This document shows, one piece after another, positions 9,289 to 23,046 of a stretch of DNA of 64,000 nt. The stretch comes from an uncultured Tateyamaria sp. Its GTDB lineage: Bacteria; Pseudomonadota; Alphaproteobacteria; Rhodobacterales; Rhodobacteraceae. The notes under the pieces were generated by a model. That model made no database searches and had not been told where the DNA came from. It worked only from the letters and a program-made list of their open reading frames with translations. Position 1 is the stretch's first letter. Each line of letters starts with the position of its first letter. The translations under genes were made by a program, and so were the position numbers. The stretch covers positions 558,001-622,000 of the forward strand of contig NZ_CANLAG010000002.1 of the NCBI RefSeq assembly GCF_947488715.1. The letters are read 5' to 3'.

Positions 9289-9359
9289 GCGCCTACGACC
9301 GGTGTCAGCCCAAAGCGGACATTGGATCTGGCCAGTAGGGTGACCGCAGGGCGGACAAA
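9289..9359. repeat. Intergenic repeat copy A
   Basis: About 71 bases, roughly 90% identical to 9672-9743 in the same orientation. The shared core reads GGATCTGGCCAGTAG and then TGACCGCAGGGCGG. It is preceded by CAGCCC(A)AAGCGGAC, which also occurs at about 20865-20879. The two full copies flank the single small gene at 9430-9636. Confidence 0.8.
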
Positions 9360-9429
9360 CCGACCCTTTGCGAAACGCCAAGAACCAGCTTAGCTTCGGA
9401 CAGATGATCCAAAGGGAAACCGTAGGCGA

Positions 9430-9636: not shown

Positions 9637-10114
9637 GAGCTTTGGCTCCAAGCAGACTTTAGCCGCGCGCCGCGCCGACGACCGTTGCCAGCCCACAGCG
9701 GACATCGGATCTGGCCAGTAGAGTGACCGCAGGGCGGGACAAAGCAGACTTGTGCAGGTGCAGCTTTCGCTGACGCAGAAACCATTCGCATCTGCGACAT
9801 GCGTTTCGCTGCATTGCAGCCAATTTCGCCGAAGCGGTCCTTTGGCTTGCCAATTGAGACACCCAGAAAAACCGCCCGAACGCCGCGTGATACGGTAGCC
9901 AGGACGAAAGCTGAGTAAGGCTAGTCGGCACGCTCAAACAGAGTTTCGACCAACGACTACACCTGCGTGTGTCGCCAGTAGATATCCGCGGATGCACTCT
10001 GTGCCCGTACTGTCCCAGATTAGTCCGAGGAGTTGCACGACATATAGCGAAACACATTGTGAACCTCCAACTGGACTGCGCGGAAATTTTTGGATTCCGC
10101 CTACATCGGTGAAG
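9637..10114. other. Intergenic region holding a repeat copy
   Basis: About 480 bases between the small two-helix gene and the end of the transglutaminase-like gene. Apart from the repeat at 9672-9743 I see no gene or RNA structure. Short ORFs here lack ribosome binding sites. Confidence 0.5.
9672..9743. repeat. Intergenic repeat copy B
   Basis: Second copy of the ~71-base repeat, with six substitutions and one inserted base relative to 9289-9359, in the same orientation 383 bases away. Confidence 0.8.
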
Positions 10115-10981
10115 TCATTGATCTTCAACACGGACAACTACCTCCATAGCGAGAAGATCGGTATCTTCTCCATGGTAGCTTCCGGCAACCGGAGCGACCT
10201 GTGATATGTTCCGCGCAACGGCCACCGGAATCAGATTGGCCGACCCCACCGACCTGTTCGTTGGGTCGAACGGGATCCAACCGGCCCCGGGAACGAAGAC
10301 TTCGGCCCATGCATGTGTAGAGCCAGAGCCGGCAGATCCGAGCCGGTCATTACTGTGGTCGTAAAGATAGCCGGACACCAGACGCGCCCCGAGACCCAGC
10401 GTTCGGATAGCCTCGGCATAGAGGACCGCAAAGTCACGACACGAACCGTAGCCCCGGTCGAGGGTTTCGAGTGGTCCTTGCGTGCCTTCGCTCTCGCGGA
10501 TCACATACGCGATCTGCGCTGTGATGCCATTGCTGACGTCCTTCAAGAGCGACAACGTATCCGTTGGCCTGCGCATCACGAATTGCTCGACCCAGTTTGA
10601 CAGGCGCCCTGCGTCGTCTTGGTATTGTGGTGCAGAAAGCGCCCCGAGATCTTTCCAGTCTTCGGCGGAGTAAAGGAATGGGTATGACGCCGCAGAGGCC
10701 GCGATCGGGAAGACAGGCCAGTCAGGTGCAGTGAGGACGGCGGTCGTATGCGACCGGATCGATAGTGTTTCCGTTGTGGCATCGAAATTGGCGATGGCGA
10801 TGGCGTTTCCAGCGACATCGTGGGACCAGTCGATGCGAGCCGTTGGCGTGATATCAAGATCGAAAGCCGTCAATGTGAGGTCCCGCGTTTCACGAGGACG
10901 CAACATCAGCCTGTGTGGACCAAGGACCACGACGGTGCGATAGCGATAGGTGGTCGTGTGTGTGATCGTAATCGTTGGCAT
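10115..10981 (-). CDS. Transglutaminase-like cysteine peptidase-fold protein
   Basis: A 288-residue protein with the usual two-part layout: an N-terminal beta domain (1-90, beginning with the typical ITHTTTYRY) and a transglutaminase-like core. The catalytic triad is visible: Cys in GYGSCRDFA (about 177-185), His in STHAWAEVF (about 221-229) and Asp in FDPTNR (about 239-244). Bacterial members are mostly peptidases or amide-bond hydrolases/ligases in the cytosol. It is the last gene of a minus-strand cluster that also holds a racemase and a DUF1611 enzyme, which suggests work on an amino-acid or peptide substrate. This is inference. Confidence 0.88.
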
Positions 10982-10990
10982 GCAGCAGAT

Positions 10991-11257
10991 CTAAGTCGAC
11001 CGACCGCCGGAGCGAGACCGACCTGTGCTGACCCCTTCGGGCATTGCCGCGCGCCATGCTGTCGTTCCTTTGCATCTTGCACAGATGCGCTGGCCGAACC
11101 CTTCGCTCCAAAACGAAGCATCACAACGCAAACAAAACCGCGGCTTCGGCACATCGCCAAGCGCGCGGCTGGGGTGATCCATCAGGATGTCGTCGACTTT
11201 GGCTTGCATCATATCCTCGCGTTCATTTGGTCCCTGAAATTGCATTTCGGACATCAT
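10991..11257 (-). CDS. Small zinc-ribbon protein
   Basis: About 88 residues. The stretch CLRCDASFWSEGFGQRICARC carries two CxxC knuckles 14 residues apart, a zinc ribbon able to bind nucleic acid or protein. The ends are polar and Arg-rich. The start at 11257 overlaps the stop of the upstream gene (ATGATG/TGA), so the two are translationally coupled. A start at 11287 would overlap by 34 bases. It lies nine bases before the transglutaminase-like gene. The function is unknown. Confidence 0.65.
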   Translation of the reverse strand: MMSEMQFQGPNEREDMMQAKVDDILMDHPSRALGDVPKPRFCLRCDASFWSEGFGQRICARCKGTTAWRAAMPEGVSTGRSRSGGRST

Positions 11258-11775
11258 ACGGAAACGGATGAAGTGCGCGGTCGGCACGGCATCCCTTCAT
11301 TCTCGGCGTCATGAATGTCCGAAGCGTCCCGCGAAGCCCCTTGCGCTGTTGCGTTTTCGGTCTCAGCGTCCGCGTTTTCCATGTCAATCTGTGTCCTCCG
11401 CGATCCCGAGTAGAGATGGCGCAATTGAGCCTCGGACACCCCGTCGGCCTGCATGACGAGTTGCACCATCGGATCGGCCAGCATTTCTTCGAGAAAGACC
11501 TGTGACAGGTCCTTGCCGGACAGTTTGTCTCTCGCACGGGCGCGGTCAAGATCGAGAAGCGACACAGTCAGGCTCCGTGTTAATCCCGGATGGGACAGGC
11601 GTGGATGCAAATGGACCACGACGGAGGCCTTCCAGGCCTGAGGGTCCTTGTGATCAGGTGGTGAGGCGAATTCAGTCTCGATATCATACTCTCCGGCGGG
11701 AAGCGTTTCGTCGAAGCCAGGAAGATTGAAAGGCCGGTCAAAAACCGCGATGGTTTTCGCTCTTTGTTCGTCCAT
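11254..11775 (-). CDS. Conserved-looking protein, 'AGEYDIE' type, unknown
   Basis: About 173 residues. The N-terminal third (FDRPFNLPGFDETLPAGEYD followed by IETE) resembles the N-terminus of the 104-residue protein at 15756-16070 (FSNDFMIGDSQRELAAGTYE followed by IVVEEEL), so the cluster encodes two members of one small beta-type family. The middle is helical and the C-terminal 50 residues are low-complexity and acidic. The start MDEQRAK was preferred over an ATG 39 bases upstream because AAAGGATC lies ahead of it. It is coupled to the zinc-ribbon gene. I cannot assign a role. Confidence 0.62.
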   Translation of the reverse strand: MDEQRAKTIAVFDRPFNLPGFDETLPAGEYDIETEFASPPDHKDPQAWKASVVVHLHPRLSHPGLTRSLTVSLLDLDRARARDKLSGKDLSQVFLEEMLADPMVQLVMQADGVSEAQLRHLYSGSRRTQIDMENADAETENATAQGASRDASDIHDAENEGMPCRPRTSSVSV

Positions 11776-11845
11776 TGCGTTTGATCCTTTCAATTGAACA
11801 GTTTTCCATGACATCGAGCAAAACCAGCCCTTTCCGGTGCATGCG

Positions 11846-11983
11846 TCAGGTTTTCTTCGGACCCGGAGAACCCGGTTTCGCAGCAGCGTCCGGCGCCTTG
11901 AGTGCCGGTTCTTTTTTCGACGGTTCCGCAGGTTTGGCTTTCAGTATGGCAGCAGCTTTGGTGGTCAGGTCTTTGAAAGACAT
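11846..11983 (-). CDS. Small basic protein with MSFKDL start (paralogue of 18341-18457)
   Basis: 45 residues: MSFKDLTTKAAAILKAK, then a Pro/Ala/Lys-rich tail. The same N-terminal pattern (MSFNDLAKKEA) heads another tiny gene at 18341-18457 in this island. AAGGATG lies at ribosome-binding distance before this ATG. A longer frame open to 12091 has no such support. The tail resembles disordered linker or nucleic-acid-associated segments. The function is unknown. Confidence 0.6.
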   Translation of the reverse strand: MSFKDLTTKAAAILKAKPAEPSKKEPALKAPDAAAKPGSPGPKKT

Positions 11984-12108
11984 GCTCTTCATCCTTTTTG
12001 GGTTTTCCGCTGGAATTTCCGGGCCTCGATCAGGCACGAATTCTCGAGTGCGGCTTATTGGTATATGTGTATTGACCGGCCCTTTTACCATGGCGCGGTG
12101 TGGGACTA

Positions 12109-12143
12109 GTCGGCGGGGTATGATCTTCGTAGGCCCCGCCGAC
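12109..12143. terminator. Perfect 10-bp inverted repeat after the racemase gene
   Basis: GTCGGCGGGG (12109-12118) and CCCCGCCGAC (12134-12143) pair perfectly across 15 bases, 15 bases past the racemase stop on the minus strand. There is no T-run, so it may be a processing or stabilising hairpin, a weak terminator, or a protein-binding site. Confidence 0.5.
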
Positions 12144-12157
12144 GACCATTGTGGGTG

Positions 12158-13279
12158 TCATACCAAGGTCAGGAAGGGGTGGGCCTCGCGGTCCTTTGCA
12201 CTTCCGTTCATCTTTTGCTTGCCATGAACAACCTTGGCGACATCTGGGGCGCTCATCGCCCGCATGAGGGCGCTGTAGTTCATGCCCATTTTCATCTCGG
12301 AGCCAACGGGCACAGCGGCTTTGGCTGAGTCGACAACGGTGTGGTCGCTGGTCGCGCCAATAAACGCCGTTCCCGGGGAAAACATAAGACCGCTTGCGTC
12401 GGTGTCTTGCTGCCCGACAGCAAGGATGGTTCGGGCTCGGAGGTCATCACTTCGAACCAAATTGAGCATCCCAAGCTCCGGAGCAATTGACATGGTCGGC
12501 ACTGGGCTTGGTTTGCGGCTTGTTTCGATCACTTCGGCAAAAAGGGTAAAGGCATCCGTATGAAGGCCAGTGATCGGATGCCCAGTCACGGGGTCGGTGC
12601 CCAGAAGGATCGCCTCACCCAGACGCAGGTTGTTGACCCGCCCGGTTGAAACGTCGCCAAGCGCCCATGGCAAATTGGCCGAGCCACCTCCTGACACAAG
12701 CTCTAGAAATGGTCCGCAGGCGCCTTCGACTTGGTCGGCCAGTCTCGAGAGCATGGCCATGTCACCGGCCGTCGGTGCAACGTCGCCCATGCAGGCAAAA
12801 TTTGCAGCGATGCCTTTGAGAGCGACACCGGGTGTTGCGATGACCTGAGCGGCGAAGTCATTGAGGTTCTCTTGTAAAATGCCTTCGCGCATATCGCCCA
12901 TTTCGACCATCAGGATGACATCGTGCGAGGCACCCTGTTCCTTTGCGGCTGCGCCAAGCTTCAGGATCGTGTCCATCTCTGTGTTATAGCTCGCGTCGCT
13001 ATACTGGATGACGTCTTCCATCTCGCTCAGTAGCGGCGCGCGGATCAGCGAAATTGGGCACGTGATCCCCGCGGTCCGCATCCGCACGACGTTTTTGATG
13101 CGTGCGTCGGCCAGACCGGCAACGCCACCGTCCAGCATTGCCTCGGCTACGTCAGGATGCCCACACACTGCCTTGGTCACACCGGTGACCGAGATTCGAC
13201 GAGCGCCAAGACGTCGGACGAGATATCGCGCGTTGGCCTGGATCTTACCCAGATTAACTTCCACTCGCGGCGAGGTCAT
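12158..13279 (-). CDS. Alanine-racemase-fold PLP enzyme (amino-acid racemase)
   Basis: A 373-residue protein of the fold-III PLP family. The N-terminal barrel starts VEVNLGKIQANARYL and carries the probable PLP lysine in VTGVTKAVCG (about residue 36). SGGGSANLPWA (about 195-205) and RLGEAILLG fit the phosphate-binding and dimer region of ornithine/alanine-racemase relatives. It would invert an alpha-amino acid. The substrate is not readable. Its start overlaps the DUF1611 gene stop (ATGA), so the two are made together and probably act on one metabolite. Confidence 0.82.
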   Translation of the reverse strand: MTSPRVEVNLGKIQANARYLVRRLGARRISVTGVTKAVCGHPDVAEAMLDGGVAGLADARIKNVVRMRTAGITCPISLIRAPLLSEMEDVIQYSDASYNTEMDTILKLGAAAKEQGASHDVILMVEMGDMREGILQENLNDFAAQVIATPGVALKGIAANFACMGDVAPTAGDMAMLSRLADQVEGACGPFLELVSGGGSANLPWALGDVSTGRVNNLRLGEAILLGTDPVTGHPITGLHTDAFTLFAEVIETSRKPSPVPTMSIAPELGMLNLVRSDDLRARTILAVGQQDTDASGLMFSPGTAFIGATSDHTVVDSAKAAVPVGSEMKMGMNYSALMRAMSAPDVAKVVHGKQKMNGSAKDREAHPFLTLV

Positions 13280-14475
13280 TCTGCGGCCGCGAGAGGCACT
13301 GGCCGCAACTGCGGAAAGGCGGACAGTACCATGTCGCTGAGGTGCACTTCTGGCCGAGTCAGCGCGTCCGTCACCGGAATGCCGAGGTCGCGCGAAAGAC
13401 TGTCAATTGCACGAATGACCTCGGTGCCCGTCATCGCTTCGTGATTGAGTGTGATTCCGATCACCCGTGTGTCAGCAAAAGCTTCGATCAGGGCGATTTC
13501 GCTTTTCGGCCCGGGCATCGGCATGGCGGGAAAGTCGCAGCGATGAGCGCGTTTGGGCGCATGTTGAAGAACAACACCGTGCGGCTGGCTGCCGCGCAGG
13601 ATGAATGCCGACGTGCAAAAAGCCGGGTGGCTGAGCGCACCTTGTCCTTCGATCAGGATGACATCCGGGTCTTCGCCGTGAGACGCCGCGACAATCACGC
13701 GTTCAAGTTCCCCGCAGCAAAACTGCGGTGGCACGGCGTCCATGGCGATGCCGTATTTTGCGCCCTGCATAAGCCCCGTCTGGCCGGTGCCGACGAGGAC
13801 GGTCTTGATACCACACGCGTTCAGTTCCCTGGCTAGAACTGTCGCTGTTGTCCGCTTGCCGATTGCGCAATCCGTTCCCAGCACCGCAATGCGGATGGCC
13901 TTCACCTCGGACACACTTCCGTCAAACAGGCGCATGTCCTTGCTTGGTCTGGGTTTGCGGATATCGCGGATCGTCACGTTGGCCGCGTCGGCAGCACCTC
14001 TGATCTCGGGATCGTCACCGAGATATTCGTGCAGGCCACTGACGACGTTCATGCCAAGCGCGATAGCATCCAGCACGACCTCCCGATCTGCCGGTGACAT
14101 CTTGCCAGTGGAGGGGGCCATACCATAGATCAAAGTGTCGGGGATATTTACCTCTCGCGTAACCGCAGCTTCGAGGTCTTCGACGACCGGGATGCCGTTG
14201 CGCACATTGTCCAGCACCTGCCCGCTGTCGCGCCCATCAAGTTTGCTGTCTATGACCGAATGAATGCGGTAGGCTTGGCTGTGACGGACAAGCCCGTTTG
14301 CGGTCTTGCCGTCGATCTGTCCGAAGTTCCGCTCACAATAGACAACCGCTGTGGGCACCCCGTATGTCACAGTCTTTTTGGTATGAGATCGACGGGACGC
14401 GGATACGTCAGGTGGGGCTTGCAGCCCCATCGTTGACAGCTTTGTCGTCGGTTTTTCTGGATTGTCAGATTCCAC
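13276..14475 (-). CDS. DUF1611-family P-loop enzyme (DgcN-like)
   Basis: About 399 residues from a GTG start at 14475, which has AAAGGA seven bases upstream. The frame stays open to 14709, but that part looks non-coding. DUF1611 features are the N-terminal Rossmann-like half (YGVPTAVVYCERNFG, IYGMAPSTGKMS) and a C-terminal P-loop VLGTDCAIGKRTTA (about 210-223). The family includes DgcN, the D-glutamate N-acetyltransferase of marine bacteria, which works with an epimerase. Here the partner is a racemase instead, coupled by ATGA overlap. N-acylation or ligation of a D- or L-amino acid is the likely reaction type. Confidence 0.8.
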   Translation of the reverse strand: MESDNPEKPTTKLSTMGLQAPPDVSASRRSHTKKTVTYGVPTAVVYCERNFGQIDGKTANGLVRHSQAYRIHSVIDSKLDGRDSGQVLDNVRNGIPVVEDLEAAVTREVNIPDTLIYGMAPSTGKMSPADREVVLDAIALGMNVVSGLHEYLGDDPEIRGAADAANVTIRDIRKPRPSKDMRLFDGSVSEVKAIRIAVLGTDCAIGKRTTATVLARELNACGIKTVLVGTGQTGLMQGAKYGIAMDAVPPQFCCGELERVIVAASHGEDPDVILIEGQGALSHPAFCTSAFILRGSQPHGVVLQHAPKRAHRCDFPAMPMPGPKSEIALIEAFADTRVIGITLNHEAMTGTEVIRAIDSLSRDLGIPVTDALTRPEVHLSDMVLSAFPQLRPVPLAAAE

Positions 14476-14564
14476 GATTATTCCTTTGCCAAGCGGGTTT
14501 ACCCGGGTCCGATCACATGGAGCGTTCGGGCGGGTGAGCCGCGTTTCATCTTGGATTGCGATCG

Positions 14565-15416
14565 CTAGTCGTTGAGGACGCAACGCCCCTGCGATCGCTG
14601 GAAGTTCCTGTGGCACGCCCACCGGCTTCCCGATCTGTCGAGATGCGCATTGTCGGGGAGGTCGATTTTTGTGCAGCCGTCTTTGGACTCTGCAAAGCCG
14701 CGATGACACTTCCAGCCCGGGCCATAGCCTGCATCGTCGAAATATGCATTCTCCGGGACGATGACAGCCTCACAGATGTCATCGCGTTCGAAATAGCCCC
14801 GCTCACATGTCCAGGGCTGGCCATACGACGACGCGTTCAGAAAGGCATTGTCGGGAACCGCGATAGCGGCACATGTCTCACCTTCGACCTGGTAGCCGCG
14901 GTTGCAAAGCCAAGCGGCGCCATAGGAGTCGGCCGACAGATACGCATTGTCCGGCACAACAACTTCCAGGCAAATGCCGTCGACCTTAATGTAGCCGCGC
15001 AAGCACCTCCATCTTTGTCCTGAAGGGTCGAGATAGCCGCCTTCGGGCACGACGACCTCAAGACAAGCCGGGCCATCGACCTCCTGAAATCCGTGCAGAC
15101 ACTCCCAGCCCTTGCCGTAGGTCCGGTTGGTGGAATAGGCATTCTCCGGAACGATGATGGCAAGGCAGGCATCGCCGTCACGCCGGTACCCACGATCACA
15201 TTCCCATCCCTCGCCATAGCTTTTGGGCTGCGCATTCGTGGGCATCGGGGCAGCCAGAGATTGGGCGAAAGACTGCGATCCGATTGCGATGAGCGCGACG
15301 AATGCGAGCGCGAGGAATTCCGCGGAGGCTATTGCAAAGCGAGACGACACCATTGCAAGCGCGCCTGCGATGCCCCTAGACGAAATAGGCGACAGTTTGA
15401 GGCCACTACGATGCAT
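14565..15416 (-). CDS. Secreted protein with seven Cys-pair repeats
   Basis: About 283 residues. An N-terminal hydrophobic signal region (MVSSRFAIASAEFLALAFVA, ending QSFAQS) is followed by seven tandem repeats of ~33 residues with the pattern [YG]-x-G-x-W-x-C-x-R-G-[YF]-x5-7-C-x2-[IV]-x-[VL]-P-[ED]-N-A. That gives 14 cysteines, two per repeat, as expected for a disulphide-stabilised extracytoplasmic solenoid. The start at 15416 overlaps the upstream stop and follows GAAGG. A start at 15353 would leave a shorter signal peptide and is also reasonable. I do not recognise a named family. The function is unknown. Confidence 0.75.
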   Translation of the reverse strand: MHRSGLKLSPISSRGIAGALAMVSSRFAIASAEFLALAFVALIAIGSQSFAQSLAAPMPTNAQPKSYGEGWECDRGYRRDGDACLAIIVPENAYSTNRTYGKGWECLHGFQEVDGPACLEVVVPEGGYLDPSGQRWRCLRGYIKVDGICLEVVVPDNAYLSADSYGAAWLCNRGYQVEGETCAAIAVPDNAFLNASSYGQPWTCERGYFERDDICEAVIVPENAYFDDAGYGPGWKCHRGFAESKDGCTKIDLPDNAHLDRSGSRWACHRNFQRSQGRCVLND

Positions 15417-15759
15417 CAAGGTCGAGACCTTCGATGCATGCCTGCGCCAGATCGCGGTTCGGACCCTCAGACCCTGGCATCGTCGCCCAGCCTGTTTCCA
15501 TGACAACGTCGCGCCGCTTGAACGATGATGCCTCACGGATTGTGGCGAGCTTTGCAATGCGTTCATTGTCGGTTCGGGACATGTCGAGGCAGAAGGGCAC
15601 GAGCGCCGCGATAACTCGGTCCTCCGCCATCTCGCTTGCCATCTCCTCAGCGCCGCCTCCGGTCATCCAGCCGCCCCAGGAAAATCCAACAATGCCGACG
15701 AACGCCGCGCCAAGGAGCGCGCCGTAAATTCCGGGTTTCAGCCATTCGGGTGTCGTCAT
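15406..15759 (-). CDS. Conserved-looking single-pass membrane protein, unknown
   Basis: A 117-residue protein. One membrane segment (about 11-31, YGALLGAAFVGIVGFSWGGW) precedes a soluble part with a single Cys pair (FCLDM and QACIEGL). It is coupled at both ends: its start overlaps the upstream 104-residue gene and its stop overlaps the start of the Cys-repeat gene. I know no function. The layout suggests an inner-membrane protein with a periplasmic domain that works with the secreted repeat protein. Confidence 0.62.
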   Translation of the reverse strand: MTTPEWLKPGIYGALLGAAFVGIVGFSWGGWMTGGGAEEMASEMAEDRVIAALVPFCLDMSRTDNERIAKLATIREASSFKRRDVVMETGWATMPGSEGPNRDLAQACIEGLDLDAS

Positions 15760-16070
15760 GTCTTGTCCTCCTGCGGGGAAAGCGCCGCTTCGCTGTCATT
15801 GATAGTTTCCGAGAGGGCCTGATCACATGCAATTGCGTGCTCCAGATCCTCCCATGTGGTCAATTGCATCGTCGTTTGACCCGTGTTGCTCCCGCGCCCC
15901 TGGACCATCAGATATGTCGCGATGCGCCGGTAAGCCTCGAAGCTGAGACCTTGCATAAGCTCTTCCTCGACAACGATTTCATACGTGCCGGCCGCAAGCT
16001 CCCGCTGGCTGTCGCCAATCATGAAGTCGTTGGAAAACGTCACCATTGATCTGGTCGAACGCGTGAGCAT
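15756..16070 (-). CDS. Small protein of the 'AGTYEI' type, unknown
   Basis: Up to 104 residues, first gene of the minus-strand cluster. The stretch RELAAGTYEIVVEEELMQGL (about 24-43) matches the N-terminal pattern of the protein at 11254-11775, pointing to a shared beta-rich module. A later start (MVTFSNDF, 16046) is possible. The stop overlaps the start of the next gene. No catalytic motif or signal peptide is visible. Confidence 0.6.
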   Translation of the reverse strand: MLTRSTRSMVTFSNDFMIGDSQRELAAGTYEIVVEEELMQGLSFEAYRRIATYLMVQGRGSNTGQTTMQLTTWEDLEHAIACDQALSETINDSEAALSPQEDKT

Positions 16071-16298
16071 CCCAGGCCTCCATTGAACAGAATGTTAAAC
16101 TTTCCGCAGCCGCCATTATGGCCAGCGTCGTCGCAGCAAGGCGGTTGAATAGACACTATCCGAACTTTCGGTGTGTGATGCTGATCGAGGTTAGCCCCAG
16201 TCGGTTTCTTGGCTGTCAAGGTGAGATGCAAAGCCGTCGCGCGGCTCCAGACACCTGCGTGCAAGTCTTCGCATCCACCGCACACCGAAAGGAAATCC

Positions 16299-16715
16299 AT
16301 GTCCGCCTCAGACGTCCTTCATCCGGATGGCAGCGACTACGATGCCTTCCTCTTCGCGGAATTGGGCGAGGACAAAACCGGTGCAGCCGTCACGGTCTTG
16401 TCAGCGCTTGCGCGCCTTGACCTCGAGCCTTGGACCGAGGCGCGTGAGCTTTCTGGTCTGGGTCGGGAGGACGCGAAAGTACGACTGACTACGCATTTTG
16501 AAGCGATTACCGACATTCCGGCGCTGGCTCTGGCAAGCGAGGGCAGAGCAGCAAAGCTGGTTTCATTGCTGCCGAAGCGCGCGCCGCTTCGCGTTTCGAA
16601 GCCACTCGAAGCAGGCAGCAACAACTCTCCAAAAATATCGATCTCATGGACAACGATGGCCCTCGTTGGAGTCGTGGTTCTAACGTGGTTCTTCTATCTG
16701 GCTCAGACGGGCTAA
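16299..16715 (+). CDS. Tail-anchored membrane protein, unknown
   Basis: A 138-residue protein from MSASDVLHPDGSDYDAFLFA. AGGAAA lies seven bases before this ATG, whereas an upstream ATG at 16209 has no site. Residues 1-100 are soluble and helical. Residues ~113-134 form one C-terminal membrane segment, so the protein would be anchored with its N-terminus in the cytosol. It is transcribed divergently from the nine-gene cluster, 228 bases away, and may belong to the same functional unit. Confidence 0.6.
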   Translation: MSASDVLHPDGSDYDAFLFAELGEDKTGAAVTVLSALARLDLEPWTEARELSGLGREDAKVRLTTHFEAITDIPALALASEGRAAKLVSLLPKRAPLRVSKPLEAGSNNSPKISISWTTMALVGVVVLTWFFYLAQTG

Positions 16716-16887
16716 CCTGCGTCAGTGCAAGGACGCGATCGAACCGGTTAGGTGATTCATGTCTACCGCTTATTGGGTTGGCATTTTTTGCGAGTATCTG
16801 AGGGGCGTGGGACGCATGCAGTCCCCAAAGAGTTTGCATGGGGTCTGCGCCTCTTATTTCTCGGACCGTCCAGGAAAGGACATTCCC

Positions 16888-17088
16888 ATGAATGAAGAAG
16901 ACCAAACCGAGGAAAACCAGACGGTGAAACACATGGCTTCCGTCAAGGCTGCCTGGGACAATGCACCCGAAGGCCCCAAGAAAGCGACCGCTCTCAAGCA
17001 TTATCAAGCGGCCGAGAAGGCGCATGAGGCCGAAAACGACGAAGAGGCACACAACGAACTCAAGCAGGCAAGCCGCGCATTGGTGTAA
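16888..17088 (+). CDS. Small acidic helical protein, unknown
   Basis: 66 residues, highly charged and predicted helical (MNEEDQTEENQTVKHMASVK, then AWDNAPEGPKKATALKHYQA). AAGGACATTCCC before the ATG is a good ribosome binding site. A frame open from 16759 adds an unlikely leader. Short proteins with the KHYQAAEKAH pattern look conserved among roseobacters, but I know no function. It may be stress-related given the neighbouring Crp/Fnr-type and cold-shock genes. Confidence 0.6.
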   Translation: MNEEDQTEENQTVKHMASVKAAWDNAPEGPKKATALKHYQAAEKAHEAENDEEAHNELKQASRALV

Positions 17089-17148
17089 AGTCGGCAAACC
17101 TGTGAAATGACTGCAAGGCCGCCCGAAGCCATACTGAGGGCGGCCGTT

Positions 17149-17880
17149 TCACGGCAACAAAGGCCGTGACTGATCGAGATAGGCCGGATCGAAATCCGCC
17201 AATGCAACCAGCCCCTCGTAGTCATCGAAGGTTACCAGCCCGCCCTGAAACGTGACGAGTCCGCGTTCGCGGAGCTTACGAAGGACGCGGTTGACGTGGA
17301 TGGCACTTAACCCCAACGCATCTGCCAGATGATACTGTGTGAGCGGACAGGCGTAGCCTTCCCTGCTCCCTAATCCGACGAGTGACAGTCTCACACCAAG
17401 CTCCAGCAGAAAATGCGCCATGCGCGCATCCGCATCGCGCCGCCCGAGCCCAACAAGATGCTCGACAACCATCGCTTCGTCCCGCGACACGGCCCAGAGA
17501 ATGGCCGTGGCCAGCCGTGGTGTCTCTGCGAAAGCTTGCAGAAGATCGCTCACCAGAACCTCCGCCGCCTCGATATCGACGATTGGTTCGATCCCATGAT
17601 CGGATGTGTGCAACAGGACGCTGCGCAGGCCCAAAAAGTCCCCCGGTATCTGGAAATCAACGATCTGCCGCGACCCGTCAGCCTGGATCTTGTAAGAAAC
17701 GACCCAACCTGCCGCCAGGATGTAAGCAGCCTGTTCCAATTGACCCTGGTGAACCAAGTCGCGCCCTGAAGAGAAAGACTTCCTCCGCTGATGCAAGCGC
17801 TCGAGAACGACCAGTTCCGTCTCCGAAAGAGCAACAAACGCAGAGAGCTTTTGGGTAAGTGGGCTGGCTTTGATGTTCAT
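17149..17880 (-). CDS. Crp/Fnr-family transcriptional regulator
   Basis: A 243-residue regulator with an N-terminal cyclic-nucleotide-binding-type beta barrel (about 20-120) and a C-terminal winged helix (about 165-225) with recognition region YHLADALGLSAIHVNRVLRKLRERG. No Cys cluster of the FNR type is present, so it does not look like an iron-sulphur oxygen sensor. It sits in the middle of the island, away from its targets. A regulator of island genes is plausible but not shown. Confidence 0.88.
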   Translation of the reverse strand: MNIKASPLTQKLSAFVALSETELVVLERLHQRRKSFSSGRDLVHQGQLEQAAYILAAGWVVSYKIQADGSRQIVDFQIPGDFLGLRSVLLHTSDHGIEPIVDIEAAEVLVSDLLQAFAETPRLATAILWAVSRDEAMVVEHLVGLGRRDADARMAHFLLELGVRLSLVGLGSREGYACPLTQYHLADALGLSAIHVNRVLRKLRERGLVTFQGGLVTFDDYEGLVALADFDPAYLDQSRPLLP

Positions 17881-18033
17881 TACCGGTCCCTCCCGAACCG
17901 CGCATACTCCCGTAAGAAATCGGCGCTGAGACTGCTTTCGATCAGTACGGACTACCTAAATTATTGAGATGTTGGTCAATACTATCACGACCTCGCCCGG
18001 TTGCGTGGCAAGAAAGGAAGAGAATTGTCCTCA

Positions 18034-18270
18034 ATGTCAGATCAACGAGACCCTTCAGGGATGGCCGCCTTCTCCATTTGCGAGGCCCTCCTACTTGCCT
18101 TGCAAGATCGCAAGCTGCTGCCGGAAGGCGAGATTCTGGGAATTCTTCGGGATGCGGCAGCGACCCACGAGAATGCCAGAGGTCCAGAAACCGAACAAGA
18201 AATGCATATGGCAACCGCCAAACTGATCAATGAGATCATCGTTGGCGGCAACCTTTCGCGCCGCCCGTAG
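18034..18270 (+). CDS. Small soluble protein, unknown
   Basis: 78 residues from MSDQRDPSGM. The core AAFSICEALLLALQDRKLLP (about 11-30) is an amphipathic helix followed by a helix-turn, and the rest is charged. The ribosome binding site (GGAAGAGAA) is somewhat far from the ATG. I do not recognise the family. It lies divergent from the Crp/Fnr gene, with 153 bases between the starts. Confidence 0.5.
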   Translation: MSDQRDPSGMAAFSICEALLLALQDRKLLPEGEILGILRDAAATHENARGPETEQEMHMATAKLINEIIVGGNLSRRP

Positions 18271-18340
18271 CGTCAACCCTCATACGCTGAACACGAGCGA
18301 AACCTATTTGCTTAGTCGCACCTCTCAACCCATCTACGGA

Positions 18341-18457
18341 TCAGTCGATTCGGTCTTTGAGTCCGGGGTGTTCGGTTGCAGTCTGCGATTTCGTATCTTT
18401 TTCTTGCGAGGCCTTTTTGTCGGTGGCCTCTTTCTTCGCCAAGTCGTTGAACGACAT
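18341..18457 (-). CDS. Tiny basic/acidic protein with MSFNDL start (paralogue of 11846-11983)
   Basis: 38 residues, almost entirely charged: MSFNDLAKKEATDKKASQEK, then DTKSQ.... AAGGAAAGCCAGA before the ATG is a convincing ribosome binding site. The first ten residues match MSFKDLTTKA of the small gene at 11846-11983, so the island holds two members of an unnamed micro-protein family. The expected product would be disordered or a single helix. Confidence 0.6.
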   Translation of the reverse strand: MSFNDLAKKEATDKKASQEKDTKSQTATEHPGLKDRID

Positions 18458-18712
18458 TCTGGCTTTCCTTTTCTGGCCGCCAGGGTATCCAGCAGCTTGT
18501 GAACTATAGGGGATCGATGCTCTCTTGGAAAGGAAACATCAGTCAAAGCACCGCGTGCACCTTGTAACACTCTCGGGGAGCCACCAAGTTTGTTATGCTA
18601 CTGACCTACATTCGAACCCCTGTTTTCCTTTACCGGCTCGCAGCGCTCGACACTGTCGTGAGAAGCCGGGTTGCCGCATATTGTGGGCAGCGATCAAATA
18701 AGGAAAATTCAC

Positions 18713-18919
18713 ATGGCCAATGGCACAGTGAAATGGTTCAACGCCACAAAGGGCTTCGGCTTTATTGCACCTGAGACTGGCGGAAAGGATGTGTTTCTGC
18801 ACATCTCCGCACTTGAGAAGTCGGGGATGACCACCATGAACGACGATCAGAAGGTGACCTTCGATGTGGAGGCCGGCCGCGACGGTCGTGAAAGCGCAAC
18901 CAACATCGCGCTAGCCTGA
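18713..18919 (+). CDS. cspA: Cold-shock domain protein
   Basis: A 68-residue single cold-shock domain. RNP1 KGFGFI and RNP2 VFLHISAL are intact, and the N-terminus MANGTVKWFNATKGFGFI is typical. It binds single-stranded RNA and DNA and acts as an RNA chaperone in the cytosol. AAGGAAAA lies just before the ATG. The ~255 bases upstream could hold a long structured leader as in many csp genes. Its presence inside the island may be cargo or an older insertion. Confidence 0.93.
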   Translation: MANGTVKWFNATKGFGFIAPETGGKDVFLHISALEKSGMTTMNDDQKVTFDVEAGRDGRESATNIALA

Positions 18920-18930
18920 TCTTTGCAAGT

Positions 18931-18951
18931 GGGCGCTCCTTTGGGGCGCCC
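18931..18951 (+). terminator. Stem-loop after the cold-shock gene
   Basis: GGGCGC (18931-18936) pairs with GCGCCC (18946-18951) 11 bases past the stop. There is no T-run, so termination strength is uncertain. Confidence 0.4.
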
Positions 18952-19074
18952 CATCGCCAGACGACCATTTGCTTTTTTGAATCTTCTTCCGCTGCCTAAC
19001 GCAGCAGTTTCTTTGCCCTGATTGGTATCCGCCGAACCGGCACTACGAATTGTTCATCCAAGGAGACCAGCCCG

Positions 19075-19755
19075 ATGCCAGATTACACAGATCCAAACAG
19101 ATCAGATGCGGGACGTGACGTCTTCAAGGGTATGTCGAAGAAATCGAAGGTCAAGGAGACCAGGAAAGAAGCCGCTATGTCGATCCGCGTGGGCGAGTAT
19201 GGCAGATATCAGATCAAGTCCGGTCGTCTCGCCGGCGCATACGGCGCTCGCGCCTTTCCCAAGCCACCCACGAAGGCGCGCGGCTTGATTGCCGAGGCGA
19301 CGGGTGAGACCGAAGAAGCTGCGATCATCGCATTGCATTCCGCCATTGATCAGCGCGAAGTCCGTAGGGCCGAAGACCGCAGAACAGACCCTCACAAAGG
19401 GACGCAGGTACCAACATCCGACGAATACGTGGAAGCGCTCCATTCGGTAAACCTGACGGGTTCGCAGCGCGCCATGTTGATGGCGTTGTCGCTGAAGGAA
19501 GCGGACGGGTTGGCACAGGTTAAGGTTGCAGATGCTGGCAGCTACAAGTCCACGACCTCGGCCAACAGAGCGCTCGCCAGTGTATGTCGTATGATTGCGG
19601 GCTATCTGTCTTCGGGAACAGGATCCACGGGGCCTTCAACGGGCCCGGATGGAAGCACGCTCATTGGGTATCGAGATGTCTCCGAACATGACGAGAAGGC
19701 TGAGAACTGGATAATGCACCCCGAGCTTTGCGCCGCCATCCGTAAGGTTATGTAA
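19075..19755 (+). CDS. Protein of unknown function
   Basis: A 226-residue protein from MPDYTDPNRS, preceded by AAGGAG at good distance. Residues 1-100 are basic with a segment resembling a small beta domain (AAMSIRVGEYGRYQIKSGRL). Residues ~108-200 are helical, with LTGSQRAMLMALSLKEADGL followed by a SYKSTTSANRALASVCRMIA stretch. That stretch reads like a helix-turn-helix and suggests DNA binding. It is the gene next to the recombinase on the island and converges with it. Confidence 0.6.
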   Translation: MPDYTDPNRSDAGRDVFKGMSKKSKVKETRKEAAMSIRVGEYGRYQIKSGRLAGAYGARAFPKPPTKARGLIAEATGETEEAAIIALHSAIDQREVRRAEDRRTDPHKGTQVPTSDEYVEALHSVNLTGSQRAMLMALSLKEADGLAQVKVADAGSYKSTTSANRALASVCRMIAGYLSSGTGSTGPSTGPDGSTLIGYRDVSEHDEKAENWIMHPELCAAIRKVM

Positions 19756-19951
19756 TTCAATGGGTAAGCCGTCCAAGTGATTGGCCAATGTGGGTTGACT
19801 GCCAATCCAGTCGAACCAGAGTTTGTCCAGAAATACCGATATGATCGGACATCAAGAGGACGTTTGGCGGCGCTTTTAACTTTGGATCAATTGCGCTGCG
19901 TGCTGCAGGTTTGCCCGCAAAGGCAGGCGGCACCAGCCGCACGCCCATTGC

Positions 19952-20584
19952 CTAGAGGTCAATATTCTCGGCGATACTAAGTGCATCTTCAAGTTCAACT
20001 CCCAGGTAGCGCACTGTGCTATCGACCTTCGTATGGCCGAGCAACAGTTGAACCGCACGCAGGTTGCCTGTTTTCCGGTAAATCTCAGCAGCTTTTGTCC
20101 GGCGCAGCGAATGCGTTCCGTATCCACTCGGTTCCAAACCAATCGCCGACACCCAATCGTGCACCAACCGGCCATGCTGACGGGTTGAAATGTGCGGGCG
20201 GTCGTGGAAGCGGCTGGGAAACACAAACGAGCAAGCCAACATTTCGGGTGATTTGACCCAAGCCAGGACAGTTTCCCTTGTGTTTTCTGTCAGTTCAAAC
20301 TGAACAGGCCGCTTGGTTTTGCACTGAATCACCGAAACCCGTTCTCGGACGCGATCCTCTTTGACCAGATCGACCACTGTGAGCCTGACCAGATCACAAC
20401 CACGTAGTTTGCTGTCGATGGCAACGTTAAATAGCGTCAGATCACGAAGGTTGTTGGCCAACTCGAGTCGCGCTCGGATTGCCCAAACCTGTTTTGGCAG
20501 CAACGGTCGTTTCTGGCCGATAATCCGCCCCTTGTTCCAGGCTTTACGTTTCGGGGTTACGGCAGGAAGTTGGACTCTAGGCAT
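19952..20584 (-). CDS. Small tyrosine recombinase (island integrase)
   Basis: 210 residues from MPRVQLPAVTPKRKAWNKG, with AAGGAGGG eight bases upstream. Catalytic residues of the tyrosine recombinase core are in order: Arg in SKLRGCDL (box I), H-x-x-R in GTHSLRRTKA, His in LLGHT and Tyr in VRYLG. It lacks the usual N-terminal core-binding domain. Short integrases of this form are common and complete in proteobacteria. It would catalyse integration and excision at the tRNA(CAU) repeat found at 4569 and 24247. It is 3.7 kb from the right attachment site. Confidence 0.88.
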   Translation of the reverse strand: MPRVQLPAVTPKRKAWNKGRIIGQKRPLLPKQVWAIRARLELANNLRDLTLFNVAIDSKLRGCDLVRLTVVDLVKEDRVRERVSVIQCKTKRPVQFELTENTRETVLAWVKSPEMLACSFVFPSRFHDRPHISTRQHGRLVHDWVSAIGLEPSGYGTHSLRRTKAAEIYRKTGNLRAVQLLLGHTKVDSTVRYLGVELEDALSIAENIDL

Positions 20585-21045
20585 AATTTGCCCTCCTTGC
20601 CGCCCTCCAAACCCAAGCATCAGCACCGTGCTGACGTAGGAATGCTACTCGCAAACCTGATTGCATCCGACCTGCCACCCGTGAGTTTTTGCTCCAAACC
20701 TAATAGCAAGCCGAATGAATGGCCGGATTCACCGCCGCGCAACTGCGCTGAAGACCTTGCATGCGCAGAAATTCTTTCGCGGCGAGCGCACGCAGCGAAA
20801 ATTTGGCACTTCCGCAATGGACTCCATGCAGACCTTAGCCGCAAACCTCGTCGACGGCCGGTGCCAGCCCGAAGCGGACTTTGGAAGTCCTAACGCCGGG
20901 CGGGAACCGGACTTTCGCTGCGATGTGCATCGAGGCCAGAAATTTCTTAGAAAGCCGACTTTAGAAGTTCCTAGTCGGCCCCTGAAATCCGAGCGGCTTG
21001 TTCCCAAAAGCACATTGAGATGTTCAGGCAGCCGAACCATCAAAC
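20585..21045. other. Intergenic region with repeat fragments
   Basis: About 460 bases between the recombinase and the restriction gene. It holds GTGCCAGCCCGAAGCGGACT (20861-20880), related to the repeat core at 9301 and 9688, followed by further short AAGTCC/GGACTT-rich stretches. No gene is supported. As the region upstream of the recombinase it may also contain its promoter and excision-factor sites. Confidence 0.5.
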
Positions 21046-22743
21046 CTACTTGATATTCCATACCTCATGATATGCTGTAGCTGCCAACGCACTGGTCCTA
21101 TCCTGTACGCGCTCTTTAGTCCAATCTGGGGCATCAAGCACATCTTGAGGCACTGAACCATTGAGTGTCTTTAGAACCTTAATTTTTTCCTCAAAACTAT
21201 CGTCTTGAAGTTCCTCATTGTCTTTCTTTGTCAGCAAGATCAAATTCCCAAAGCTGCCAATAATGTCAGCATTCCAATCGGCATCCATCTTCGCTTGTGG
21301 GAATATGTGCTCAATCGTCAAATTGGCGGCGTCGTCAGAAAAGGCTAGTTTCTGACTGACGGCGAGCTTTTGAAGCGTATACCTTACCAGGCTAGACTGC
21401 TTTGTGTTGATCTTCGTATAAGAGATTTGCTCGAAACCGGCCAAGAATTCAGAAATTGAAGGCTTTCTTTCATCAAGTTTTTCTATCAATTCGTTGATAA
21501 CAACGCCTGCTTCATTGGCGTCTTTCGCTTCAAATATCTTACGACCGAACGACGAATACATTGCCGAGATACCACCCGAGGATCGCGAAGAGGTCACCGC
21601 TGTAAAAAGGAAATGAAAATCCTCAATCGCCTTTAACGCGCGTTTTAGCGCTCTGTCACTTATCAAACCACTCTTGTTTGCTCTTACTAACGACAACACT
21701 CCCGGCGTATGCTGACTTATCTTGAATATTCGCATTGCCTTTAGGGAATTGATAATCTCAACTTGCTCTTTCTTCCAGCCTTGATCTGGGTTGAAGATGG
21801 AAACGTAATACTCCGCATCAACCACAAATCCCTTGAGTTGGTCTTTCGCAGTGGTAGCCTTTACTGCGGACTTGATCCTTTTGTAGGCTTTTTGCTGCGT
21901 GGTGGCTTCGAATTTTGAAGACCAAGAGTGTGTAAAGAACGTATCCGGATCTATGTCGACTTCACTGCCGTTGATCGTTGATAAAATCTTGGTCCAGAGC
22001 TCTTTTGCACTGTCAACAGAGCCCTTTCCCTTAATTGTTTTGAGGAAATGGTTCTTAAGGAGATCTGTTAACGCAAGGTCCTTGCCCCGGGTGTTCAAGG
22101 TTTCAAAGATTAAGTAAGCATCATCCTCATTGTCGAGTTCTATTCGAATGAGACTCAAGAAAAGCACTGAATCGCGTAGCTCCTTCAGTCTTCTGATTTT
22201 TGCTTCTAGCTTATCGTCTTTTAAGACCGCGCCATCTGCATCAACCGCAACAAGGATCCCTCTAACCTTCTTTTCAAAGAAGTTATAGGAAGCCTGAAGC
22301 CTTTTTTCTTCCCTCTGAGGCTCTGTTTCAAAATCCTTTTCTTCGAATTTCTGAATCTCTTCGGCAAAGAAGGGGTAGGATGTTTCTGTCATTACTACAT
22401 AGCGATTGACACTATCCCTATCGCCGCGCTCAATAAGGGCGTGGAGCCCTTTAGCCAAATTTTCGCTGCCTAGTTCCTGAAATACATTTCGAATGACGCA
22501 GAGCAAGATCGTGATCGTGGTGAGGCGCTGCTGACCGTCAACCACGCCGTATTGCTGTCGGCCTGCTCCGTACAACACCATTGAACCAATGAAGTAATCT
22601 TCGCCTTCGGCTTTAACGACATCGTTCCAAAAATCTTCAAGGTTTTCATCGTCCCATGAATAAGGCCGCTGAAAGCGAGGAATTATTAGGAAATCAGAAG
22701 TGAACAGGCGCTCCACGTTGGTGTCACTGGATTCAATTTTCAT
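21046..22743 (-). CDS. Single-chain GmrSD-type (DUF262/DUF1524) type IV restriction enzyme
   Basis: A 565-residue protein. The N-terminal DUF262 (GmrS-like) has IPRFQRPYSWDDENL (about 20-34) and VVDGQQRLTT (about 69-78), the ParB-like NTP-binding motif. The C-terminal DUF1524 (GmrD-like) HNH nuclease has LTIEHIFPQ followed by FGNLILL and a final EEK. Such fusions cut DNA carrying modified (for example glucosylated hydroxymethyl-) cytosine and so defend against phages. The start at 22743 has a perfect AAGGAGATCCTG site. Codon use is clearly more AT-rich than its neighbours, suggesting recent transfer. It stands alone beside the recombinase. Confidence 0.88.
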   Translation of the reverse strand: MKIESSDTNVERLFTSDFLIIPRFQRPYSWDDENLEDFWNDVVKAEGEDYFIGSMVLYGAGRQQYGVVDGQQRLTTITILLCVIRNVFQELGSENLAKGLHALIERGDRDSVNRYVVMTETSYPFFAEEIQKFEEKDFETEPQREEKRLQASYNFFEKKVRGILVAVDADGAVLKDDKLEAKIRRLKELRDSVLFLSLIRIELDNEDDAYLIFETLNTRGKDLALTDLLKNHFLKTIKGKGSVDSAKELWTKILSTINGSEVDIDPDTFFTHSWSSKFEATTQQKAYKRIKSAVKATTAKDQLKGFVVDAEYYVSIFNPDQGWKKEQVEIINSLKAMRIFKISQHTPGVLSLVRANKSGLISDRALKRALKAIEDFHFLFTAVTSSRSSGGISAMYSSFGRKIFEAKDANEAGVVINELIEKLDERKPSISEFLAGFEQISYTKINTKQSSLVRYTLQKLAVSQKLAFSDDAANLTIEHIFPQAKMDADWNADIIGSFGNLILLTKKDNEELQDDSFEEKIKVLKTLNGSVPQDVLDAPDWTKERVQDRTSALAATAYHEVWNIK

Positions 22744-23046
22744 CAGGATCTCCTTAAGCCTAACACTGCAATGGCGCACTCAAAGTCTCTGAGTAGTTGT
22801 GCGGCTTGGTTGCGTGGGATTCAAGTAGGACGAACAGTAGCGCAGCGAATGTCTCCTTCGGCGGGCCGCACCGCAGCAATCCAGATCACTGGTCAATGTC
22901 CACAAAGGGCCGACATCAGAACTTTGCAAAGTCCGCTTTCTGCGCATCGCTCCATCACGCAGCATCGGCGATCAAGGGCTCAGACCGGACCTTGGGTTGA
23001 GTGTCGATCCGGCCTAGTGTGGGGTCAACAAAAAGGAGCCAAAGGA
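22744..23046. other. Intergenic region, divergent promoters
   Basis: About 300 bases between the divergent restriction gene and the secreted-protein gene. A longer reading frame runs through it but lacks a ribosome binding site. CAAAGTCCGCTTTCTGCGC near 22927-22945 is a reverse-strand relative of the AGCGGAC repeat motif seen elsewhere in the island. No RNA gene is recognised. Confidence 0.45.

Follow-up and report, generated by a model that had tools for sequence, protein, structure and literature searches.

What does a marine bacterium do with a cluster of nine genes in which a predicted amino acid racemase and a DUF1611 enzyme stand beside a transglutaminase-like protein and an exported-looking, cysteine-rich repeat protein? 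The question is raised by a 64,000-nucleotide stretch of DNA from an uncultured Tateyamaria sp. (Rhodobacteraceae; RefSeq assembly GCF_947488715.1, contig NZ_CANLAG010000002.1, positions 558,001 to 622,000 of the forward strand), here called the window, where nine minus-strand frames, p1 to p9, run from 16070 to 10115. A first-pass annotation, made from the sequence alone, took these nine genes as the unit and proposed that they make a D-amino-acid-containing compound, perhaps attached to the secreted repeat protein; the mobile island that encloses them went unnoticed. In our reading, which we hold about as strongly as we doubt it, marine Rhodobacterales carry a mobile stress-tolerance island of modular build; the cluster forms one of its arms, and its cargo pair, p4 and p5, would racemise an amino acid and N-acylate its D-form.

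All nine frames are present, and their neighbourhoods were compared across 69 distinct loci, defined as racemase rows no shorter than 330 aa and distinct from one another within their final 200 residues. Where a fraction of these loci is given below, it counts those with the gene near the racemase.

15756..16070, minus strand: p1, 104 aa, an LPAGxYEI protein homologous to p7; 39/69 loci
15406..15759, minus strand: p2, 117 aa, with one N-terminal membrane helix (by eye) and two invariant cysteines; 60/69 loci
14565..15416, minus strand: p3, 283 aa, exported-looking and EGF-like, with seven two-cysteine repeats; 59/69 loci
13276..14475, minus strand: p4, a DUF1611 P-loop enzyme, paralogue of the D-glutamate N-acetyltransferase DgcN (Pfam, curated model)
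12158..13279, minus strand: p5, a pyridoxal phosphate (PLP) racemase of the alanine/ornithine racemase (Orr) superfamily, with a 4-nt overlap with p4 (Pfam, tree, alignment)
11846..12091, minus strand: p6, a small Lys/Ala/Pro-rich protein with weak coding evidence; 22/69 loci
11254..11814, minus strand: p7, an LPAGEYDIE protein and homologue of p1, its C-terminal part helical in a model of low confidence; 27/69 loci
10991..11287, minus strand: p8, short and zinc-ribbon-like, with CxxC pairs; 30/69 loci (DZR_2 E 0.096, below cut-off)
10115..10981, minus strand: p9, transglutaminase-like, with the Cys, His and Asp of the usual triad seen by eye (Pfam); a member in 21/69 loci

The family names previously given to p9, p5 and p4 held up, each with Pfam matches over cut-off (Bact_transglu_N, PF08379, and Transglut_core, PF01841, both in p9; Ala_racemase_N in p5; DUF1611_N and DUF1611 in p4), and the seven two-cysteine repeats were confirmed in p3, which also gave a weak match, yet over cut-off, to EGF_MSP1_1. 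No Pfam family over cut-off was found for p1, p2, p6, p7 or p8, and the coding signal of p6 is weak (codon-position differences 68/62/93). The probable start of p4 is near 14475, which gives 399 aa, a length shared by many relatives, and that of p3 is at 15416. Gene junctions overlap at only four of the eight (p1/p2, p2/p3, p4/p5 and p7/p8), fewer than the majority that had been described, whereas the expected co-occurrence was borne out: in 16/69 loci, window included, the full set of nine is found near the racemase. The exact order of the window is kept in 13 of these 16 (among them L008, with a truncated transglutaminase), and the remaining three have a second transglutaminase interposed. 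This order is beyond chance; furthermore, 18 island-family profiles gave no match in 39 control stretches, all taken from genomes that carry the pair (in G363, as a broken copy). A single fixed nine-gene pathway is ruled out by loci that hold only parts of the set, and an anti-phage defence system by the lack of any PADLOC match among the nine proteins (0/9 at E 0.001).

In 67/69 loci a DUF1611 gene immediately precedes the racemase, and 59 have the 4-nt overlap. The two exceptions are L047, where the racemase frame was called too long and a DUF1611 gene is present, and L114, which has no DUF1611. Because of the neighbour counts in the 69 loci, we regard p4-p5 as a fixed unit, p2-p3 as its usual companions and p6-p9 as an optional second module. 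In a 71-row racemase tree the 60 DUF1611-linked rows form one clade (100/99), together with the L026 copy that stands beside a DUF1611 fragment; just outside it fall the long-branched L114 and racemases fused to an arginase-family domain (fusion in 3/3 scanned). Whole-genome searches, with the own genome counted each time, found the racemase in 28/248 genomes of the family, 6/240 of the class and 14/398 of the phylum, and its distribution within the family is sporadic. In scanned genome contigs, relatives of the racemase turned up at 44 loci, and the source genome itself holds a second p2-p3-p4-p5 copy on another contig. Moreover, the pair occurs without p3 or a transglutaminase on Vibrio plasmids, in other Gammaproteobacteria and in several alphaproteobacteria.

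Two further families follow the pair. One, c21 (93 aa), stands after the racemase in 22/69 loci (e.g., L104 8063-8344), mostly in islands without p6-p9, and alongside p6-p9 in L008 and L104-L106. The other is found on four Vibrio plasmids, where the gene after the pair is annotated as the type II secretion system (T2SS) pilotin lipoprotein GspS-beta, with Pfam T2SSS_2 confirmed for L116:

L116 9097-9474, L117 9085-9450, L154 10094-10459, L155 9083-9448: pilotin gene after the pair (annotation)

The nine genes form one side of a larger element, whose extent and remaining genes are as follows.

about 9737-20824, no strand: mobile island, 11.1 kb, with sharp ends (transglutaminase side ...TTTGTCC; recombinase side GAGYCCA...), from DNA matches and end alignment
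16209..16715, plus strand: c5, a recurring island gene, divergent from p1
16759..17088, plus strand: c20, a recurring island gene
17149..17880, minus strand: Crp/Fnr-family regulator (family scan)
18001..18270, plus strand: c8, a recurring island gene
18671..18919, plus strand: cold-shock protein of CspA type (CSD, E 1.4e-23)
19075..19755, plus strand: c6, 226 aa, an island gene
19952..20626, minus strand: short tyrosine recombinase at the island end (Phage_integrase, E 2.4e-17)

The island DNA match is unbroken, at 90-97%, in L006, L012 and L032, and falls into two pieces in L004, L005, L010, L014 and L019, the long pieces being 84-96% alike. Similarity drops sharply at both ends and the flanks beyond vary by genome, except for L007/L011 and L019/L046, which have common flanks. 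In two congeners with identical flanks (G856 and G861) the island lies near a virB11-like stretch, and a third congener, G860, has an empty site, where sequences 70-77% like both flanks stand 582 bases apart, vs 11.9 kb with the island. The search for an empty site of the window's own place in 60 relatives gave only short matches to the flank, which we read as repeats. With a recombinase, sharp ends with differing flanks and an empty site all found, a mobile integrative element is well supported; a Vibrio lentus plasmid, too, has a relative of the recombinase next to the pair. A dispersed, palindromic-looking repeat with copies in congeners is located at window 9300-9360, 9660-9745 and about 22840-23040, and the island ends abut what appear to be halves of this repeat, which may be the insertion target. 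Directly past the recombinase end, at window 21046-22779, lies a GmrSD-type (type IV restriction) gene with strong Pfam and PADLOC matches.

Stress genes are associated with the pair. They were counted from a list (CspA, GroEL, GroES, HflK, HflC, desaturase, DEAD helicase, Hsp20, NhaA and DnaK-like) in 68 loci with and 10 loci without DUF1611 linkage, after removal of rows >90% alike. At least one listed gene was present in 32/68 linked loci vs 2/39 control stretches (one-sided Fisher p 2e-6, a value that overstates independence, given stress references drawn from such islands, common descent among the loci and our own choice of the control places), and in 0/10 loci whose racemase is without DUF1611. 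Pfam confirmed the identity of five of the stress genes. Of 40 control stretches chosen, one lay beyond its contig and was left out. The two control stretches with a listed gene were L233 (DEAD helicase) and L209 (GroEL, GroES and Hsp20); in the latter (G332 C1:300000-318000) the three genes stand together, perhaps as another stress island.

In the window's own island CspA is the single clear stress gene; related islands and plasmids have more. Related islands carry a fatty-acid desaturase, GroEL, a DEAD-box RNA helicase, or HflK/HflC. On plasmids, the pair is accompanied by GroES/EL in Phaeobacter porticola (pP97_c), by HflK/C and a desaturase in Ruegeria conchae, by NhaA and HflK/C in Vibrio parahaemolyticus, and by two Hsp20, GroES/EL and a recombinase in Vibrio europaeus, while the annotation of the pair-bearing plasmid stretches of V. 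lentus and V. cyclitrophicus shows none of these stress genes. Mobile stress islands are a known kind of element. The transmissible locus of stress tolerance (tLST), locus of heat resistance or TLPQC denotes Gammaproteobacterial mobile blocks that collect proteostasis and stress genes, the tLST set being ClpK, sHsp20, FtsH, HdeD and thioredoxin. The present island resembles them as mobile DNA grouping several stress-protection genes, but its scaffold is another, its cargo is the DUF1611-racemase pair, and Pfam scans of the 16 window island proteins found no Clp, Hsp20, FtsH, HdeD or thioredoxin.

Which enzymes, then, does the pair encode? p4 belongs to the DUF1611 family (PF17396, 89.9 bits; PF07755, 229.3 bits; both over cut-off), the P-loop GTDCxxGKxTTA is kept in the p4 family, and 55/129 columns conserved among 73 members of that family are identical in the source genome's own DgcN. 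DgcN and DgcA constitute a D-glutamate pathway, made up of a DUF1611 N-acetyltransferase and an enolase-type N-acetyl-D-Glu racemase. Like DgcN, p4 is coded beside a stereochemistry-inverting enzyme and has the P-loop, TGQTG and EGQG motifs; unlike it, p4 has an Orr-type PLP partner of the Ala_racemase_N family and a mobile stress context. Against the DgcN model NF041892 (cut-off 480 bits), p4 scored 163.5 and a Vibrio homologue 158.5, and this low score, together with a PLP neighbour in place of DgcA, rules out p4 as DgcN. Genuine DgcN (547.1 bits) and DgcA (504 bits) are encoded elsewhere in the source genome, on contig C1 (L049 7570-9702).

As to p5, full-length similarity to Orr, the PLP lysine K36 and about 30 core residues are held in common, whereas the DAFGNxP loop of Orr is missing and p5 is tied to DUF1611. 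Scores below the cut-offs of the curated models rule out both Orr (NF040742, cut-off 480 bits: p5 268.1, Acetoanaerobium positive control 549.6) and alanine racemase (TIGR00492, cut-off 168 bits: p5 32.6) as identities for p5. Among its relatives, the Orr-type racemases fused to an arginase-family domain are located at L118 8001-9788, L143 8096-9922 and L144 8090-9916. The L118 fusion sits in an annotated arginine-degradation locus, with D-amino acid dehydrogenase, 5-guanidino-2-oxopentanoate decarboxylase and agmatinase, which is likely to be an arginine/ornithine racemase route.

The relation between the repeat protein and the pair bears directly on the first proposal. In a 33-row alignment, 12/14 cysteines of p3 are invariant and 2/14 nearly so (L041 being without part of the repeats). 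The predicted structure is a confident repeat model (predicted local distance difference test score, pLDDT, 84), and the PDB entries nearest to it belong to EGF-type repeat proteins; one of these reaches E 3e-4, but template modelling (TM) scores are low, for which reason we call p3 no more than EGF-like. By eye, p3 has a signal-like N-terminal helix, and p4, p5 and p9 have none.

Eleven stretches (three plasmid, eight genomic) were fetched for p3 or p1 without the expected pair. When the pair was looked for directly, ten showed no trace of it, and the eleventh, L173, which lies beside the pair of its own genome, includes the first part of a DUF1611 gene at one edge. Among the ten, p3 occurs in nine, eight of which have one or two transglutaminases, and HflK and HflC are both present in five; in the genome of L174, one of the ten, a pair locus follows after about 19 kb. 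Furthermore, p3 was found in 19 of 120 sampled genomes of the family, seven of the 19 lying outside the racemase-positive set. Since p3 and the pair each occur without the other, p3 is not an obligate substrate of the pair. A 159-aa family with no Pfam match (L159 13187-13666) follows HflK-HflC or p1-p2 in several islands.

We favor, with the divided confidence stated at the outset, a scaffold-and-cargo organization. The recurring scaffold would consist of c8, Crp, c20, c5 and the divergent p1-p2, then p3, transglutaminases and p6-p8, and would take as optional cargo HflK-HflC, the DUF1611-racemase pair or, occasionally, both, with GroES/EL, NhaA, desaturase, CspA or RNA helicase joining. The tyrosine recombinase probably moves the island, and the Crp/Fnr regulator probably controls it. 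p4 and p5 would be a translationally coupled, cytosolic two-step pathway, in which PLP-dependent p5 would convert a free L-amino acid to the D-form, and the DgcN-like p4 would N-acylate the latter, pulling the equilibrium. The neighboring arginase-fused branches hint at a basic substrate, ornithine or arginine, for p5. The resulting N-acyl-D-amino acid might protect the cell against cold, salt or protein-folding stress, either as a solute or as part of the envelope, with p2 and p3 as a presumably separate envelope module. That marine Alpha- and Gammaproteobacteria have stress islands with a dedicated protectant pathway, yielding an N-acyl D-amino acid or, in Rhodobacterales, a new PLP-derived product, we consider possible but doubtful.

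Besides the inflated Fisher value, several observations weigh against the favored reading. No listed stress gene was found in the DNA examined of 36/68 linked loci. HflK-HflC usually stands between p2 and p3 and the pair after p3, so that their positions differ, and both cargoes are found together in L024 and in the R. conchae plasmid, hence they are not strict alternatives. For regulation, an FNR-type box upstream of p1 reached at least 8 of 10 positions in only 5/42 rows and is not conserved; the island has five FNR-type boxes, vs 2.1 in shuffles, and an TCGATCAGCATC element 118-132 nt upstream of p1 is found in close relatives only. Finally, the DAFGNxP loop is absent in 78/78 linked racemases and in 5/12 unlinked ones, and its loss in the former means that the substrate, or even the reaction, may differ. 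This last point opens onto a rival to which we give a small chance, namely that the Rhodobacterales p5 is a related PLP enzyme that is a racemase no longer and feeds p4 through a new reaction. The loss of the loop is indeed graded, since it is present in 7/12 unlinked racemases, reduced to AFG-type remnants in basal linked ones (nine non-Rhodobacterales linked rows shown) and unseen in five Rhodobacterales rows shown and a 19-row alignment. The retained PLP lysine and about 30 residues of Orr relatives speak for a racemase all the same, and 5/12 unlinked relatives are loop-less as well.

Among the other rivals, catabolic scavenging, in which the pair would degrade an environmental D-amino acid as DgcN-DgcA does D-glutamate, draws on the homology of p4 to DgcN, and dgcN is described as widespread among marine bacteria (PMC12363236). 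However, a genuine DgcN-DgcA is already encoded in the genome, no transporter or catabolic family besides the pair was found among the 16 scanned island proteins, and the context is one of stress genes. The PLP mechanism requires a free amine, for which reason the partner of p4 should not accept an N-acyl amino acid. We likewise see only a small chance for this explanation. A slim one is left to peptidoglycan editing, whereby, under stress, p5 would provide the cell wall with a non-canonical D-amino acid and p4 would limit or activate it: the stress-island setting and the pilotin-annotated gene after the pair in the four Vibrio plasmids are in its favor, but the 16 scanned proteins include no known peptidoglycan enzyme family, the racemase has no export signal by eye, and the DUF1611 pairing is left unexplained. 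Attachment of a D-amino-acid compound to p3 by the transglutaminase, as first proposed, appears very unlikely to us. All the parts do lie in one operon-like array in the 16 loci, and the transglutaminase directly follows p3 in several pair-less islands; yet p3 is exported-looking and p9 is not, the pair is found without p3 or a transglutaminase, and the occurrence of p3 and transglutaminase without the pair argues against the pair decorating p3. What stands of that proposal is a conserved cluster with a racemase-DUF1611 pair, and what does not is the attachment to p3.

The first-pass annotation knew of no described system with this gene set, and the literature searched, judged mainly from listings and the beginnings of abstracts, gave no description of either the DUF1611-PLP racemase pair or the island. 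Two of the papers searched mention DUF1611, each a single time and under a title that concerns another topic. What appears to be new here is an uncharacterised DUF1611-racemase pair as cargo of a stress island. If the favored reading is true, D-amino acid chemistry would be a transferable stress-survival trait of marine bacteria, beyond the cell wall or catabolism. Because the pair is small, almost never split and found in named marine isolates, its reaction and benefit are directly testable, and it would offer a handle on non-DgcN DUF1611 enzymes and on the unnamed recurring families p1/p7, p2, p3, c5, c8, c20 and c21. Regarding the first of these families, the model of p7 reached a pLDDT of 62 and no PDB match at E 0.001 was found for its fold, and p1 and p7 are homologous to each other (hhalign probability 96%, E 3.8e-9).

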